This document shows, one piece after another, positions 1 to 7,260 of a stretch of 64,000 bases of DNA. A model generated the notes under the pieces. The model was not told the DNA's origin and did not search any database. It saw only the letters and a list, made by a program, of their open reading frames with translations. Location of the stretch: contig NZ_WWNE01000008.1 in assembly GCF_009909615.1 (NCBI RefSeq), positions 62,001 to 126,000 of the forward strand. Reading direction: 5' to 3'. The translations under genes were made by a program, and so were the position numbers. How positions within the stretch are numbered: position 1 is the first letter of the stretch; the number at the start of each line of letters is the position of its first letter. The stretch comes from Acidiluteibacter ferrifornacis. Lineage in GTDB: Bacteria > Bacteroidota > Bacteroidia > Flavobacteriales_E > Vicingaceae.

Positions 1-843
1 ATGGAACTGGATGAGTTAATAGAAAAGAGAGATGAATTAGAGGAGAAAATTAAATACATGTTGATACCAAAAGATCCGGAAGATTCGAAGGATGTTATAG
101 TAGAGATTCGTGGTGGAACAGGAGGTGATGAAGCAGCTATTTTTGCTGGAGATCTTTTCAATATGTATACTCGATTTGTACAATCTAAAGGGTGGAAATA
201 TGAAGTGCTATCAATGAATGAAGGAACTTCAGGTGGTTTTAAGGAGGTGTCATTTAGTGTAAGTGGTGATGATATCTACGGAACGTTAAAATATGAATCC
301 GGGGTTCACCGCGTACAACGAGTGCCGCAAACAGAGACACAAGGTAGAGTGCATACTTCTGCAGCTACAGTAGCTGTTCTTCCAGAAGCAGATGAAGTCG
401 ATATTAAATTAAATATGTCAGATGTAAAGAAAGATACCTTTAGGTCGTCTGGGGCTGGTGGGCAACACGTTAATAAAACGGAATCTGCAGTTCGGTTAAC
501 ACACATACCCACTAATACAGTAGTAGAATGTCAAGAGGGGAGAAGTCAGATCAAGAACTACGAAAAGGCCTTGACGGTATTAAGATCTAGGTTGTATGAA
601 AAGGAATTAGCTATTAAGAATGCAGAGAGGGCAGAGCATCGTAAAACTTTAGTTTCTTCTGGTGATCGTTCTGCAAAAATAAGAACCTACAACTACCCTC
701 AAGGTAGAGTAACTGACCATAGAATTAATTTGACGGTATATAATTTAGATGCAATTATTAATGGTGGCGCTTTAGATGAAATAAGTGATGCATTAAAAAT
801 GGCGGAGAATACTGAAAAGATGAAGGAAGGATCAATTGAATAA
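1..843 (+). CDS. prfA: Peptide chain release factor 1, 5'-truncated by window edge
   Basis: Class I release factor reading UAA and UAG in the ribosomal A site and triggering peptidyl-tRNA hydrolysis. The visible 280 residues show the RF1 stop-codon tripeptide P-x-T as PQT (visible residues 109-111, within [14 protein letters not shown]) and the catalytic GGQ loop (153-155, [12 protein letters not shown]). The family is usually about 355-360 residues, so roughly 75 N-terminal codons lie upstream of the window; the ATG at base 1 is probably an internal methionine (inference). The PxT tripeptide argues for RF1 rather than RF2, which carries SPF. pyrF follows 3 bases after the stop codon, so the two are probably co-transcribed, a pairing common in Flavobacteriia. 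Confidence 0.95.
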
Positions 844-846
844 GAC

Positions 847-1671
847 ATGAATAGACAAGAACTAGTTGCCCATATCAAAGCAAAGAAAAGTTTCCTATGC
901 GTAGGGTTAGATACAGATATTGAAAAAATTCCCAATCACTTAAAGGAAACAGAAGATCCTATATATGAATTCAATAAAGCAATTATTGATGCTACTAAGG
1001 ATTATTGTGTAGCTTATAAACCCAATATTGCCTTTTATGAAAGTTTGGGTAGTAAAGGCTGGTCGAGCTTAGAAAAGACATTGAATTATATACCAAAGGA
1101 TATTTTCACGATTGCAGATGCCAAACGAGGAGATATTGGAAATACTTCAAAGTTATATGCTCGTGCTTTTTTTGAGCAAATGGATTTTGATTCAATAACA
1201 GTAGCTCCATATATGGGGAGTGATTCAGTTTTACCTTTTTTATCATACGAAAATAAGTTTGTTATTTTATTGGCATTGACTTCCAATGAAGGAGCGTTAG
1301 ATTTTCAGTTTATGACATCTAATTCTACTGGACTGAAACTATATGAAAAAGTAATTGAAAAGGCGAGTACTTGGGGAAATCCAGAGAACTTAATGTTTGT
1401 CGTTGGTGCCACTCGCCCAGAGATGTTGAAGAATATACGAAAGTTGGCTCCTGATAATTTTCTGCTAGTTCCTGGTGTAGGTGCTCAAGGCGGTAGTTTA
1501 GAAGGAGTGGCCATGAATGGTATGAATAAAGACTGTGGACTATTGGTTAATTCTAGTAGAGGGGTTATTTATGCCGATCAATCAGAAAGCTTTGCAACTG
1601 TAGCTGGTGAAAAAGCAAAAGAGCTTCAACAAGAAATGGAAGGTTACTTAAAGAAATTTGGAGTAATTTAA
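847..1671 (+). CDS. pyrF: Orotidine 5'-phosphate decarboxylase
   Basis: Decarboxylates OMP to UMP, the last step of de novo pyrimidine synthesis, in the cytoplasm. The 274-residue length and the motif [10 protein letters not shown] (residues 91-100, catalytic Lys93) place it in the longer PyrF class (subfamily 2) rather than the roughly 230-residue E. coli type. The N-terminal VGLDTD motif (19-24) and the C-terminal phosphate-binding segment (VPGVGAQGG) are also visible. The start is the ATG 3 bases after the prfA stop, which gives the expected family N-terminus. The downstream DUF2851 gene begins 8 bases after its stop, so it sits inside a tight operon. Confidence 0.95.
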
Positions 1672-1679
1672 AGCAAAAA

Positions 1680-2951
1680 ATGAAAGAAGACTTTCTACAT
1701 TATATCTGGAAATTTCAAAATTTCAATACAGTAGAACTGGTTGGAACAAAAGGCGAACAGATTACAGTAAAGTCGATAGGAGTGCACAACCAAGATGCAG
1801 GTCCTGATTTTTTAAACGCTAGATTAGTAATTGATGACAGAGATTGGGCTGGTAATGTGGAGGTCCACATTAATTCCTCTGACTGGTATGCGCATAAGCA
1901 CGACCTAGATAAGGATTATGAAAGTGTTATACTCCATGTGGTTTACAAATATGACAAGCCGGTATTTCTAAGGGATGGTTCTGAAATTCCAGTTTTAGAG
2001 CTTAAATCATTAATTCCTGAGGTAGTCGTTTCAAATTATGATCGGTTGATGTTAGAGACTGATTGGTTATCCTGTAGAAATAGTCTCTCTAATATAGATT
2101 CATTTACTTTAAAAAATTGGTTAGATCGTTTGCTCATTGAAAGGTTAGAAGCTAAGGTGAGCCCCATTAATCAAACATTGTCGCAACTAAATGGGGACTG
2201 GGAAAGTGTATTTTATATCTGGTTGGCAAAATATTTTGGTTTTAAAGTGAATAGTGAACCATTTTACCAATTAGCTATTAATGTGCCTTTTCAATTATAT
2301 TCTAAGTATGAACAACAATTTCAAATCGAAGCGCTGCTTTTTGGGCAAGCTGGGCTTTTAAATAAGAATTTTGTTGATGAATATCCAAATCGATTAAAAA
2401 CAGAATACAATTTTTTGAAATCAAAACATAGACTTTTTGAACTCAATGGCAGTAGTTGGAAATTTTTAAGGTTACGACCTGCTAATTTTCCTACGATTCG
2501 GTTGTCTCAGTTTGCTAGTTTAGTTTTTCGACATAAAAAAATGTTTGCGTTGATATTAAAGACAAGCACTATTAATGAGATGATAGAATTGTTTGACACT
2601 CGAGCAAATGAATATTGGGAGAATCATTTTCTATTTGATAAACCTTCCAAACAGAACAAATACACTAATCTAGGGATTTCAGGTAAAAGAATTTTAATCA
2701 TTAATGCAGTGGTGCCAGTAATGTTTGCTTACGGGAAGAAAATAGGAGATGATCAAATTATCGAACGAGCCGTCCGTTTTCTAGAAGAATTGCGTTCTGA
2801 GGATAATACAATAATTTCACACTTCAAGTCATTTGGAATTGATTCCAAAAATGCTTTTACTTCACAATCATTAATCCAATTGAGTGTTGCCTATTGTAAA
2901 AATAAAAATTGCTTAAATTGTGCTATCGGAAATAAAATAATTAGAAGTTGA
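1680..2951 (+). CDS. DUF2851 family protein
   Basis: Recognised as the Bacteroidota-specific DUF2851 family by its N-terminal half: KEDFLHYIWKFQNF at residues 2-15, an aspartate/asparagine-rich segment (HNQDAGPDFLNARL) and GNVEVHINSSDWYAH. This layout looks nuclease-like, but I see no proven catalytic centre and the family function is unknown to me. The C-terminus carries a CxxC-type cluster (CKNKNCLNC) that could bind metal. The length of 423 residues suits the family. It lies between pyrF and the PspC-domain gene with gaps of 8 and 3 bases, so it is almost certainly in the same operon. No signal peptide is seen, so it is probably cytoplasmic. Confidence 0.8.
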   Translation: MKEDFLHYIWKFQNFNTVELVGTKGEQITVKSIGVHNQDAGPDFLNARLVIDDRDWAGNVEVHINSSDWYAHKHDLDKDYESVILHVVYKYDKPVFLRDGSEIPVLELKSLIPEVVVSNYDRLMLETDWLSCRNSLSNIDSFTLKNWLDRLLIERLEAKVSPINQTLSQLNGDWESVFYIWLAKYFGFKVNSEPFYQLAINVPFQLYSKYEQQFQIEALLFGQAGLLNKNFVDEYPNRLKTEYNFLKSKHRLFELNGSSWKFLRLRPANFPTIRLSQFASLVFRHKKMFALILKTSTINEMIELFDTRANEYWENHFLFDKPSKQNKYTNLGISGKRILIINAVVPVMFAYGKKIGDDQIIERAVRFLEELRSEDNTIISHFKSFGIDSKNAFTSQSLIQLSVAYCKNKNCLNCAIGNKIIRS

Positions 2952-2954
2952 TTC

Positions 2955-3188
2955 ATGAAGAAGAGGATTCAAGAAATATTTGAAAGAAATGCATTTGGGG
3001 TATGCGAATGGTGGGGCGAAAAACTTGGAATTAAAATTCAAAGGATTCGTTTATTCTTTATTTATTTTTCCTTTATTTCAGTAGGATTGTCTTTTTTGAT
3101 ATACCTATCAATGGCATTTATTTTGGAACACAAGGAGCTTTTTAAGCATGTTTTTTCTAAGAAAAGAACCAATATTTGGGACTTATAA
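2955..3188 (+). CDS. Small PspC-domain membrane protein
   Basis: A 77-residue protein with a PspC-like pattern: a short cytoplasmic N-terminus (FGVCEWWGEKLGI), a basic RIRLFFIY junction and a hydrophobic segment at about residues 31-55. It ends in a basic tail (KKRTNIWDL). In enterobacteria PspC helps sense envelope stress. In Bacteroidota short PspC proteins are common, and this one sits directly behind a DUF2851 gene (3-base gap), which suggests co-expression. There is no PspA or PspB neighbour, so a role in a phage-shock response is not supported by context. Single-pass inner-membrane location is inferred from the hydrophobic profile. Confidence 0.7.
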   Translation: MKKRIQEIFERNAFGVCEWWGEKLGIKIQRIRLFFIYFSFISVGLSFLIYLSMAFILEHKELFKHVFSKKRTNIWDL

Positions 3189-3227
3189 TAACAATTATTT
3201 GTAGTAAAAAATATAAAATAGATTTCA

Positions 3228-4136
3228 TTGAAAAGAATACTTATTACAGGAAGTAATGGCCTGCTTGGTCAAAAGCTGATCAAGAACTTAATAACCCTTA
3301 GAGAGGAGAATTACGATGTATTAGCCACTTCTCAAGGAGAAAATAGAATGTCTGACAGAAAAGGATATAATTATCAATCGTTGGATATAACTAATGTTAA
3401 TGACGTTGAAGCGGTATTTGATAGTTTTCAACCTGATGTCGTTATTAACACCGCAGCAATGACTAATGTTGATGTTTGTGAAACCGAAAAGGAAAAGTGT
3501 CGACAATTGAATGTGGAAGCTGTGATGCACCTGATAAATGCCTCAAGAAAGCACAATTCGCACTTGATTCATTTATCAACAGATTTTGTTTTTGATGGAA
3601 AGAGTGGACCATACCGTGAAACAGATAAACCCAACCCACTTAGTTTTTATGGACAAAGTAAATTTGACTCAGAACGACTGTTGGAGGAAAGCAATATTAA
3701 ATGGAGTATAGTTAGAACAATCATAGTATACGGTGTAGCGGAGTCTATGAGTAGAAATAATATTGTACTATGGGCCAAACAAGCATTAGAAAAAGGAGAT
3801 CCTTTGAGTATAGTAAATGACCAATTCCGGTCTCCAACTTTGGCAGAAGATCTAGCGGAAGGATGTTTGTTAATTGCAGACAAAGAGAAAGAAGGAGTTT
3901 TTCATTTGTCAGGTAAGGATCAAATGAGCATTGTTGAGTTAGTAAAAAGAGTTGCTAACTATTTTCATTTGAATACTATATCTATTAAAGAGGTGAGTTC
4001 AAGCACCCTTAGCCAAGCTGCTAAAAGACCACCTAAGACTGGATTTATTTTAGATAAAGCAATTTCAGAATTAGGGTATAACCCTCACTCTTTTGAGGAA
4101 GGATTGCAAATACTCGAGAACCAATTGCAAGCATAA
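3228..4136 (+). CDS. SDR-family NAD(P)-dependent oxidoreductase (RmlD-like)
   Basis: Extended short-chain dehydrogenase, most like dTDP-4-dehydrorhamnose reductase (RmlD/RfbD). The nucleotide-binding motif GSNGLLGQ starts at residue 8, [12 protein letters not shown] follows strand 4, and the YxxxK pair is in [10 protein letters not shown]; the 302-residue length fits. The start is a TTG at 3228: the reading frame opens immediately before the conserved MKRILITG segment and no nearby ATG would preserve the fold. No other rhamnose genes are adjacent, so the substrate is not established; it could act on another nucleotide sugar. The upstream gap of 39 bases is AT-rich. Confidence 0.8.
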
Positions 4137-4145
4137 AAAAAACAA

Positions 4146-4153
4146 TATATTTG
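4146..4153 (+). promoter_or_regulatory. Predicted -7 promoter box for the symporter gene
   Basis: TATATTTG matches the Bacteroidota -7 consensus TAnnTTTG exactly. A TTG lies 18 bases upstream (4125-4127), slightly closer than the usual 19-21. The box covers the TTG codon at 4151, which argues that translation begins at the ATG at 4190 instead. Confidence 0.55.
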
Positions 4154-4189
4154 TTAAGTTACCTAAACAAAAATCTCAAATCTTTATAC

Positions 4190-6256
4190 ATGTTTAAATA
4201 CACCAATTATTTATTAGCTTTTTTATTCATTAGTGCAAACGTATCGGCCTCTGAGTTTAAAGCGACAGTTACAACAGACAATCCATCACCTGAAATAAAC
4301 GATGGGGAAGCAAGAGTAAAAGTCAATGGTGGTGTTCCTCCTTACACTTATAAATGGAATAAACAAGATGTAAAATTATCGTCTGATTTTGCTAACGGAC
4401 TTACTGAAGGTGAAGAGTTTGCTGTAATTGTAAGAGATTCATTAGGTTCAGAAATTAGGTTGTCAGGGGTAGTAGAAACCAAATCTGGGCCCGAGGCTAT
4501 CAATTCATTTGTTAAACCTATCGTAGGTTATATGAGTGATTTTTTATTTTGGGATCCTTTTTCTGCGATAGGTATTTATGACCCTGTAGTATATGCAGAA
4601 TTAAAGAATGTAAAGGCTCCTGGATGGTCAAATCCTGAGGTTACAAAAATAATATTGAAGGAATGGAAAATTGAAGAAGGTAGTCAAGTAAAAAAGGGAG
4701 ATTTGATTGCAATTGTAACGCAAGATAATGTCAAGGATATTGAGGTTTATGCCAATGCTCAAGGCAAATTGAAACACAATACCGCTGAAGGTAAAACTAT
4801 TTTTGATTCTAACAACATAAACGATATAATTCAAGTAGGGGCTGAAAATATGGCCTCCATTGTATATGATACTCATCAACCCGTATTGCACCCAAATGGA
4901 GATATTCAGAAAAAGGGAATACCCTTTATAGTGGTTTGGTTGGTTCTTGGAGCAATTTTCTTCACTATTAGAATGCGTTTTATTAATGCAATGGGATTGC
5001 CCCATGCAATGCAGTTAATAAAGGGAAAGTTTGACAATCCAGATGATGAAGGCCAAGTTAGTCATTTTCAAGCATTGACAACTGCGTTGTCAGGTACCGT
5101 AGGTCTGGGAAATATAGCAGGGGTAGCAGTCGCAATTAGCTTAGGAGGACCTGGTGCAACATTTTGGATGATAGTTGCAGGACTAATTGGTATGGCAAGT
5201 AAATTCACAGAATGTACACTGGGGGTAAAGTATAGAGTTGTAGGTAAGGATGGTGATGTATCAGGAGGGCCAATGTATTACTTGAGTGAAGGGCTTAAGC
5301 GTAAGGGCTTAGGAGGATTAGGTAAAGTGTTGGCAGTATTGTTTGCAATACTTTGTATTGGAGGTTCCTTCGGAGGAGGTAACATGTTTCAGGCTAATCA
5401 GGCTTTTGCCCAATTGTCAGGTGAATTTCCTATCCTAGAAGGAATGGGTATTTGGTTCGGAATCATCTTAGCACTTTTGGTAGGAATCGTAATAATTGGT
5501 GGTATCAAAAGTATCGCAAAGGTTACTGATAAGATTGTGCCTTTTATGACTGGAATTTATGTGCTTTTTGCTCTAATAATAATAGGTATTAATTTCGCCA
5601 ATGTAGGTGATGTATTTTATGAGATATATGAAGGTGCATTTAATTCTCCTGCAATTAAAGGAGGAGTAATTGGAGTCTTAATTGTAGGATTTCAAAGAGC
5701 AGCTTTTTCTAATGAAGCAGGTGTAGGGTCCGCTTCAATTGCCCACTCTGCTTCCAAAACTAATGAACCTGTAAGTGAAGGTGTGGTTGCATTATTGGAA
5801 CCGTTTGTAGATACGGTATTGGTTTGCACCATGACAGCATTAGTGTTGGTATTTACAGGATATGCAGACGGAACTTCCGGGTTAGAGGGATCTGAATTGA
5901 CGTCTGCAGCGTTTGGTTCTGTCTTTCCATGGTTTTCATTAGTTTTAGTAATTGCGATTTTTCTATTTGCTTTTTCCACCATGATTTCATGGTCTTATTA
6001 TGGACTAAAAGCGTGGACCTACTTATTTGGAAAAAGCAAAACAGCAGAAAATACTTACAAGTTAATCTTTCTAATTTTTATTGTTATTGGTTCTTCAGTT
6101 GGACTTGGTGCGGTTCTCGACTTTTCAGATTTAATGATTCTTGGTATGGCATTCCCAAACATTCTAGGTCTGTTGATTTTGTCTAAAGAAGTTAGAACTG
6201 ATATGATTTCCTATTTCCAGCGAATTAAATCTGGAGAAATTAAAAAGTTCAAATAG
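4190..6256 (+). CDS. AgcS-type sodium:alanine symporter with SprB-like and lipoyl-like extensions
   Basis: Secondary transporter of the AgcS family (amino acid:cation symporter) in the inner membrane. From the ATG at 4190 it has a signal-like N-terminus (residues 1-20) and an Ig-type SprB-like repeat (about 24-92, [10 protein letters not shown]). A helix resembling the AgcS N-terminus follows (about 106-128), then a biotin/lipoyl hammerhead-like domain (about 135-225, [17 protein letters not shown]), then the symporter core from about 245 onward ([39 protein letters not shown]). AgcS proteins are usually about 450-570 residues; this one is 688. The TTG at 4151 is a possible but less likely start because it lies in the -7 box. 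What the extra domains do is unknown; external sensing or docking is inference. Confidence 0.85.
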
Positions 6257-6300
6257 TTCGGTTTTTAAAAATCAGTATATTAGAGGTGTAAAATGCCTCT

Positions 6301-7260
6301 ATGAGAAAACAAGTTCGAGACTTTTTAACATTTACAAAATTAGAAAAAGAAGGTGTTTTCGTTTTCTTGCTGCTCATTTTATTCATTTGTGGGCTTATCT
6401 ATACTATGGATTGGATAAACTGGAAGGCCAATCCGAATTCAGAAAAGTTAAAGTCGGAATTTGAGAGAGTTAAACATTTGTTTGACTCGGTACAGGCTAC
6501 GAAACCTACCTCATCTACAGTATATCAGGATTTTAAGAGAATTGATAAAGACAATCAATTAATAGATATGGTGGACGATACCATTTCATTCGCTCCGTTT
6601 GATCCTAACCACTTTTCATTAGAAATTGGAGCTTCAATTGGTTTGACTGAAAATCAATCAAATTCAATTTTAAAATATTTAAATAAGGGTGGGCAATTTA
6701 AAATCAAAAGTGACTTCAAGAAAATGTACGTAATTTCTGATGAAAAATATAAATCATTAGAGCCGTTTATTATGTTGCCTGAAAATTTTCCGGCGAAGGA
6801 TAAAATTAAATTCGAACAGTCCACAAAAGTGAAGTCTACTTCTCCCCAAATTAATGAGCCTTATATAGCGGATATTAATAGTGCTGATTCTGCGGCGTTA
6901 AGAAAAGTAAAAGGAATTGGTGGATATTATGCCAAATCGATCGTAGCTTATCGTGAGAAACTTGGAGGTTATGTACAATTGGAACAATTGATGGAAATAT
7001 ATGGAATGGATGAAGAGCGGTATTTAGCATTACAACCTTTCTTAAAGATTACAAATCCAAAACCATTTCGAAAGATAAATGTTAATACCATAACCAAGGA
7101 AGAGTTAAAACTTCACCCTTATTTTGATTGGAACTTAACCAGGTCTTTGATCAATTACAGAGACAATCATGGTAAGTTTAGGAACATTCAGGACTTAAAT
7201 AAACTTCAGTTGATAGACACTAATATATATCGTAAAATTGCACCTTATTTAACTTTATAA
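6301..7260 (+). CDS. Membrane-anchored helix-hairpin-helix (ComEA-like) protein
   Basis: A 319-residue protein with one hydrophobic segment at about residues 20-36 (FVFLLLILFICGLIYTM) followed by three helix-hairpin-helix units. These lie at about 108-160 (degenerate), 190-248 (DINSADSAALRKVKGIGGYYAKSIVAYRE) and 260-318 (INVNTITKEELKLHPYFDW). The second unit carries the classic GIGxxxA hairpin of DNA-binding HhH domains such as ComEA. Orientation would place the HhH units outside the membrane or in the periplasm. DNA binding is inferred from family; competence genes are not adjacent. A short hairpin (6282-6286 with 6296-6300) ends right at the start codon. apt begins 2 bases after its stop. 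Confidence 0.75.
   Translation: MRKQVRDFLTFTKLEKEGVFVFLLLILFICGLIYTMDWINWKANPNSEKLKSEFERVKHLFDSVQATKPTSSTVYQDFKRIDKDNQLIDMVDDTISFAPFDPNHFSLEIGASIGLTENQSNSILKYLNKGGQFKIKSDFKKMYVISDEKYKSLEPFIMLPENFPAKDKIKFEQSTKVKSTSPQINEPYIADINSADSAALRKVKGIGGYYAKSIVAYREKLGGYVQLEQLMEIYGMDEERYLALQPFLKITNPKPFRKINVNTITKEELKLHPYFDWNLTRSLINYRDNHGKFRNIQDLNKLQLIDTNIYRKIAPYLTL

Follow-up and report, generated by a model that had tools for sequence, protein, structure and literature searches.

Does an amino-acid symporter that carries two additional folded domains ahead of its membrane core represent a genuine protein architecture, and if so, what might these domains do? The question is raised by an agcS gene in the 64,000-nucleotide stretch of Acidiluteibacter ferrifornacis DNA analysed here (the window), which the initial annotation had described as a sodium:alanine-type symporter carrying a SprB-like repeat and an inserted lipoyl-like domain. 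LeuT-fold transporters are usually seen as bare helical bundles, and the AgcS protein studied here carries what are predicted to be periplasmic add-ons. In the open-access PMC literature, partly judged by titles and abstracts, no description of an AgcS protein with SprB plus lipoyl-like domains was found. The features of the gene are as follows.

4190..6256, + strand: AgcS-family Na+:amino-acid symporter gene (688 aa; coordinates include the stop codon)
4190..4249, + strand: putative signal peptide, about residues 1-20 (NVSA/SE), judged by eye; similar N-termini in relatives
4253..4477, + strand: SprB-type Ig-like beta sandwich, residues about 22-96 (PF13573; model strands 24-94)
4478..4585, + strand: pre-TM1 helix (100-119), FWDP motif (120-123) and outgoing hairpin arm (to about 132)
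4586..4879, + strand: lipoyl/biotinyl-like insert, residues about 133-230 (profiles and models; missing at the same place in L126-L129)
4727..4732, + strand: Asn180 and Val181, where the E2 lipoyl lysine aligns (profile alignments)
4733..4735, + strand: Lys182, proposed by the initial annotation; off the aligned modification position
4880..4924, + strand: returning hairpin arm (PVLHPNGD to GIP), residues 231-245
4925..6253, + strand: AgcS transport core, residues 246-688 (TM1, 246-262, plus the LeuT-fold helices)

An AgcS transport core with an extended N-terminus

The open reading frame starts with an ATG at 4190, its stop codon ends at 6256, and an in-frame TTG at 4151 offers an alternative start that would add 13 residues. 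The starts of the relatives were set by rule, at the ATG nearest upstream of the hydrophobic segment, and their agreement with the start in the window is therefore not independent. PF01235 (425.3 bits, cut-off 24, residues 284-684), TIGR00835 (411.7 bits, cut-off 272.65) and the match to PDB 6cse (E 1.5e-93, starting at residue 245) all agree on the AgcS core that had been claimed, and no second PF01235 match turned up in the window's genome. The AlphaFold2 model of the full-length protein (mean pLDDT 79.5, moderate) places TM1 at residues 246-262 and superimposes on 6cse with Z 48.1 and rmsd 2.3 over 421 aligned residues at 40% identity, that is, on the AgcS fold of one helix followed by a LeuT-type fold. 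The gene product is thus predicted to be an AgcS Na+-coupled importer of alanine, glycine or a similar amino acid. Few AGCS members have been characterised and their substrates vary, and since a Campylobacter member is reported to carry glutamine (PMC12795558), alanine should not be assumed as the substrate.

Two beta domains precede the core

Structure prediction, which had been suggested for residues 1-250, was run on residues 1-247 (mean pLDDT 87.7) and gave a beta sandwich in the SprB region and a lipoyl-type fold, with a signal-like helix from residue 2. The models of residues 1-247 and of the full-length protein agree on a beta sandwich at 24-94, a helix at 100-119 and a beta domain at 135-231, bearing out the proposed order of SprB, helix, lipoyl domain and TM1. 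The comparisons below use three nested alignments: A1, with 55 rows, comprises the window protein, 45 SprB+lipoyl proteins and 9 SprB-only proteins, and leaves out L033 (shorter frame), the second copy of L031, L068 (start unclear) and all plain AgcS proteins; A2 keeps 37 of the 46 SprB+lipoyl rows of A1 after close ones were dropped; and A3 keeps 26 of those 37.

PF13573, the SprB repeat known from the Flavobacterium gliding adhesin SprB, scores 28.0 bits on residues 1-247, equal to its cut-off of 28, and 26.3 bits, below it, on the whole protein. Across the relatives the match is general: all 37 N-termini, the window included (36/36 relatives), match SprB at E <= 0.01, with a best E of 2.7e-10, and this, together with the modelled sandwich, upholds the claimed SprB-type domain; the 37-row counts for SprB and Biotin_lipoyl use E <= 0.01 and not curated cut-offs. 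Decoration and neck proteins of phages are also among the profile matches of the sandwich. A Foldseek search with the entire N-terminus returned mainly multi-domain carboxylases at low TM-scores over the full query, matches that bear little on the structure of the SprB part.

For the second domain, single-sequence profile scores fall short of the cut-offs (PF00364, 21.8 bits versus 22.1 on residues 1-247 and 19.8 on the whole protein; PF13533, 24.4 bits versus 29.8 on residues 1-247). Biotin_lipoyl is nevertheless matched by 35/37 N-termini, the window included (34/36 relatives), at E <= 0.01 with a best E of 4.3e-8, and a profile search against E2 lipoyl domains gave a best E of 3.8e-5, to PDH E2. 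The predicted model of the domain adopts the lipoyl-type fold, aligning in VIA-align with lipoyl, biotinyl and HlyD-type domains at Z 9.0-11.1 (for 3crk_D, Z 10.2 and rmsd 2.2 over 76 aligned residues); a Z below 8 may reflect merely a common arrangement, a value that all the lipoyl rows exceed, and rows 1 and 2 are integrative models rather than crystal structures. The lipoyl-like domain and its insertion between the pre-TM1 helix and TM1 therefore stand as originally claimed.

The insertion site is the tip of a hairpin that relatives possess without the domain. A pre-TM1 helix similar to that of the window occurs in shorter AgcS proteins lacking the extra domains, and in lipoyl-less relatives the hairpin-like stretch before TM1 typically reads (I/L)YDPV..., a few residues, ...PNGD...IPF. 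Within the window's family, six residues separate (D/N)PVVY from PVLHPNGD in L126, L128 and L129 (L127 is similar), and L130-L133 carry the lipoyl domain between the same hairpin arms; overall, lipoyl-bearing proteins are about 90 residues longer between the arms than lipoyl-less relatives. As judged from the fold, the lipoyl domain would begin and end on neighbouring strands, which suits the tip of a hairpin. Around the site N105, P110, V112, F120, W121, D122, G128 and P132 are invariant in 37 rows, and N236, G237 and I244 are invariant across 55 rows, 9 of them from lipoyl-less proteins. Mean identity to the window across 45 relatives is 0.41 for the lipoyl domain, 0.42 for the SprB domain and 0.67 for the core, namely that the modules change faster than the core.

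The extra domains are probably periplasmic

In the structural comparison, LeuT-fold rows other than 6cse start at model residues 271-296, so that TM1 (246-262) precedes the LeuT fold. The first helix of LeuT begins in the cytoplasm, and with TM1 ahead of this fold the N-terminus should therefore lie outside. Loop charges mostly agree, with five K/R in residues 348-374, three in the last seven residues and none in 413-419 or 556-581, but the inside assignment of loop 263-291 (three K/R, four D/E) is not backed by charge. The signal-like segment, the fold and the charges are thus consistent with the external placement of the domains that had been claimed, and we predict both to lie on the periplasmic side. 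Separately, in plain AgcS proteins of another lineage (L103-L110) TM1 is separated from the SHFQAL motif by a longer, acidic stretch, which would be a cytoplasmic loop by the topology adopted here.

The arrangement is patchily shared within Bacteroidota

A search across Bacteroidota had been recommended, and the same architecture was found in many relatives. Genome-by-genome profile searches covered the window's phylum, where AgcS at E <= 1e-60 is present in at least 161/296 genomes and the full N-terminus in at least 5/296, the window's own included; the N-terminal and full-length profile searches identified the same 5 genomes. Class-wide, at least 12/395 genomes match the N-terminal profile, at least 9 of them over its whole length. 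In the window's order (46 genomes, all of one family) at least 15/46 match, 11 over the whole length and 4 only to residue 135-159; in these four, which belong to the window's family, the SprB part is present (in L126 PF13573 scores 18.0 bits, below the cut-off) and the lipoyl domain is absent. Since few first-look candidates were scored per genome (with the N-terminal profile 9 for the phylum, up to 60 for the order and 7 for the class; with the full-length profile 3), these genome counts are lower bounds.

A collection scan over all bacteria and archaea used six short query patterns, and the best 80 of at least 588 relatives were analysed; two of the patterns lie inside the extra domains, and the 80 kept loci are therefore enriched for these domains. 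The SprB+lipoyl loci among the best 80 bear Bacteroidota titles except L018 ('Algicola'), which is Pseudomonadota in the tree taxonomy, yet clusters with Allomuricauda and Flagellimonas. Among the SprB-only loci, L054 and L064 carry Chlorobi/Chlorobiota titles. The SprB+lipoyl arrangement is thus shared by many Flavobacteriaceae and by members of the window's family and is not confined to this genome; its distribution within Bacteroidota is patchy. The patchiness reaches down to a single genus of the window's family (g149), in which G325, G326 and G329 have the lipoyl domain and G327, G328 and G330 do not.

Evolutionary history and gene neighbourhood

On trees of the core the SprB state requires 5 changes with either 123 or 84 rows, and the lipoyl state 3 with 123 rows and 5 with 84. 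The 123-row tree was built after dropping the window duplicates L086 and L091, the fragment L079, L065 (ambiguous letters) and identical cores; the 84 rows were chosen from 131, some of which are one gene fetched twice, without the second copy of L031, several long or plain outgroup rows and many close Flavobacteriaceae. A single clade for the SprB+lipoyl proteins (33/84 rows) was rejected (p-AU 6.45e-107), which implies more than one gain, loss or move of the state. In a quick tree, the lipoyl-less L126-L129 are nested among lipoyl-bearing rows, and holding together the 11 lipoyl-bearing rows of the window's family, a group named after viewing the tree, gave a p-AU of 0.0575; loss of the lipoyl domain within this family is likely, though not proven. 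Distances of both modules follow those of the core (Mantel r 0.745 for the lipoyl domain and 0.790 for SprB, 46 rows, with 0 of 999 permutations as high in either case), the pattern that joint descent of modules and core would give. The simplest reading is a single early insertion followed by losses, and transfer or repeated gain of the lipoyl domain is possible.

The neighbourhood is largely shared. In 46/51 SprB+lipoyl, 10/14 SprB-only and 17/30 plain AgcS copies, one of the two genes that follow agcS is the helix-hairpin-helix gene (window 6301-7260, HHH_3), and DUF2851 (window 1680-2951) occurs within four genes upstream in 43/51, 4/14 and 8/30, respectively; some loci in these counts end early at contig ends, and one further agcS copy without the SprB part has neither gene. 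The neighbour names apt, acyl-CoA dehydrogenase, xerC/D, hpf and tuf were read from the sequence by eye. Given the shared neighbours, many agcS copies are likely orthologues altered in place. A partner gene was sought near agcS, with Pfam for the window genes in 1-7260 and by eye for the others, and none was convincing. A short gene, lipoprotein-like by eye, directly follows agcS in 8 loci (L002 and L126-L132) and is absent from this place in the window and in L133; its L002 copy (L002:8056-8721) has no Pfam match at E <= 0.01.

Some loci depart from the common pattern. L011, L017, L019, L025 and L031 hold two lipoyl-bearing AgcS copies a few kilobases apart, whose second copies form their own branch in the core tree; in that of L031 the SprB part is missing from the frame and the gene may be broken. 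The AgcS of a Flavobacteriales MAG (L053:2989-3594) has, in front of the pre-TM1 helix, a different N-terminal extension with a weak resemblance to lipocalins (PF13648, 18.4 bits, below the cut-off of 22.4), and another AgcS (L106:2989-3414, minus strand) has an unrelated insert of about 80 residues at the corresponding site before TM1, the sole Pfam match of this stretch, DUF6705 (17.4 bits, below cut-off), lying ahead of the insert. The AgcS loop before TM1 can take up whole domains, and domains may have been gained there repeatedly.

Proposed role of the extra domains

Based on these findings, we propose, at a probability of roughly 0.55, that the protein is an ordinary AgcS importer bearing unmodified periplasmic contact modules, for docking or spacing, at its pre-TM1 hairpin. 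The outer N-terminus would have acquired the Ig-like SprB domain, and the tip of the older hairpin just before TM1 an unmodified lipoyl-fold domain. Transport would be performed by the core alone, with the two beta domains serving as periplasmic contact modules, in docking or spacing as in HlyD-type adaptors, linked to TM1 via the hairpin; the lipoyl module would be an accessory that lineages can lack. Docking or spacing is favoured because the lipoyl module is missing in near relatives, and if those predicted lipoyl-less copies do transport, the domain is not needed for transport. The docking role is suggested by the type of fold; no partner, ligand or phenotype was found, and a regulatory role would explain equally well why many Flavobacteriaceae retain the domains.

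The initial annotation had also considered gating and sensing, and a possible if unlikely alternative is indeed an ectodomain in which the SprB and lipoyl-like domains cover the outer vestibule and, having bound the substrate or some ligand, change access by way of the hairpin joined to TM1. The modelled strands 135-142 and 220-231 continue the hairpin into TM1, so that a movement could be passed on, and conservation is higher in the returning arm (231-245) than in the lipoyl domain itself (mean identity 0.57 versus 0.41). However, L126-L129 do without the lipoyl module, with hairpin and core otherwise alike, TM1 precedes the LeuT-fold helices, and only 3/98 lipoyl columns (Y, A, G) are invariant in the 26 rows of A3, which gives no hint of a common ligand site.

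It is somewhat more doubtful that both domains are neutral passengers, which a permissive loop tolerates and which serve no selected function. Such a reading accords with the patchy presence of the whole N-terminus (at least 5/296 genomes phylum-wide and at least 9/395 class-wide) and with the other N-terminal additions in L053 and L106 (the latter unclassified and near the hairpin), but both modules remain recognisable across wide divergence (Biotin_lipoyl 35/37, SprB 37/37).

A bolder form of the contact-module proposal, to which we give little weight, is that a periplasmic docking head recruits a periplasmic or outer-membrane partner into a trans-envelope assembly for amino-acid uptake in Bacteroidota, loss of the partner leading to loss of the domain; the inserted lipoyl-fold and SprB domains would then work like the lipoyl ring of HlyD/RND adaptors. 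The natural sets of proteins (SprB+lipoyl, SprB only and neither), largely at one locus and even within one genus, make the effect of the add-ons testable by swaps.

The lipoyl-like domain is very unlikely to be modified

A true lipoyl or biotinyl carrier, whose modified lysine would join chemistry tied to Na+ transport, is very improbable, clear as the lipoyl/biotinyl fold is. The initial annotation had placed Lys182 near the expected modified position, and here the alignments speak otherwise: the lipoyl lysine of E2 proteins falls at profile position 48 (first domains of three E2 chains) or 49 (the others shown), corresponding to Asn180 and Val181 of the window protein, and the lysine that carrier domains hold at the turn between their two halves was not found there. 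Lysine occurs at column 180 in 8/37 rows, which could speak for a carrier, at column 181 in 1/37 and at column 182 in 5/37, and is nowhere conserved from 177 to 182 (at most 8/37). Additionally, lipoyl and biotin ligases work in the cytoplasm, and the domain, preceded by a signal-like segment, is predicted on the outer side. Lipoylation or biotinylation was therefore rejected as very unlikely. As for a frame or assembly error joining unrelated genes, nothing was found in its favour and it can be practically dismissed, since the extension is kept in relatives and the same fusion recurs in many separate genomes, in a single open frame and mostly among the same neighbours.

Comparison with known systems

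A functional analogy may be drawn with HlyD/RND adaptors, which likewise hold a lipoyl-fold domain in the periplasm. HlyD (5c21; Z 10.0, rmsd 1.9, 72 aligned residues, 29% identity) and BesA (4kku; Z 9.3) are the periplasmic proteins in the list of structural matches to the lipoyl-like domain, and their lipoyl domains are not known to be modified either. However, the window model has no helix between the strands of 135-206 and hence lacks the long helical hairpin that separates the two lipoyl halves in adaptors, no adaptor family appeared in the Pfam lists and NCBIfam RND_mfp only at E 0.033, and the adaptors are separate proteins, whereas the domain described here is part of a secondary transporter. 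The E2 lipoyl and biotin carboxyl carrier domains resemble it in fold (Z about 10) and in sequence profile (E 3.8e-5), but the window protein lacks their conserved turn lysine and its domain is probably not cytoplasmic; a lipoyl match of this kind should not be taken to imply a lipoylated enzyme. The SprB-type domain shares with the PF13573 repeat an Ig-like sandwich and a sequence match around a GG-PPY-Y-W stretch, and differs in being a single copy on an inner-membrane transporter. Finally, the transport core is that of AgcS 6cse (40% identity over 421 residues, Z 48.1), although the aligned 6cse chain starts at its residue 17 and the window protein has about 245 residues first, with a signal-like segment and the SprB-type and lipoyl-like domains. 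This protein presents a new domain arrangement on a known transporter family.
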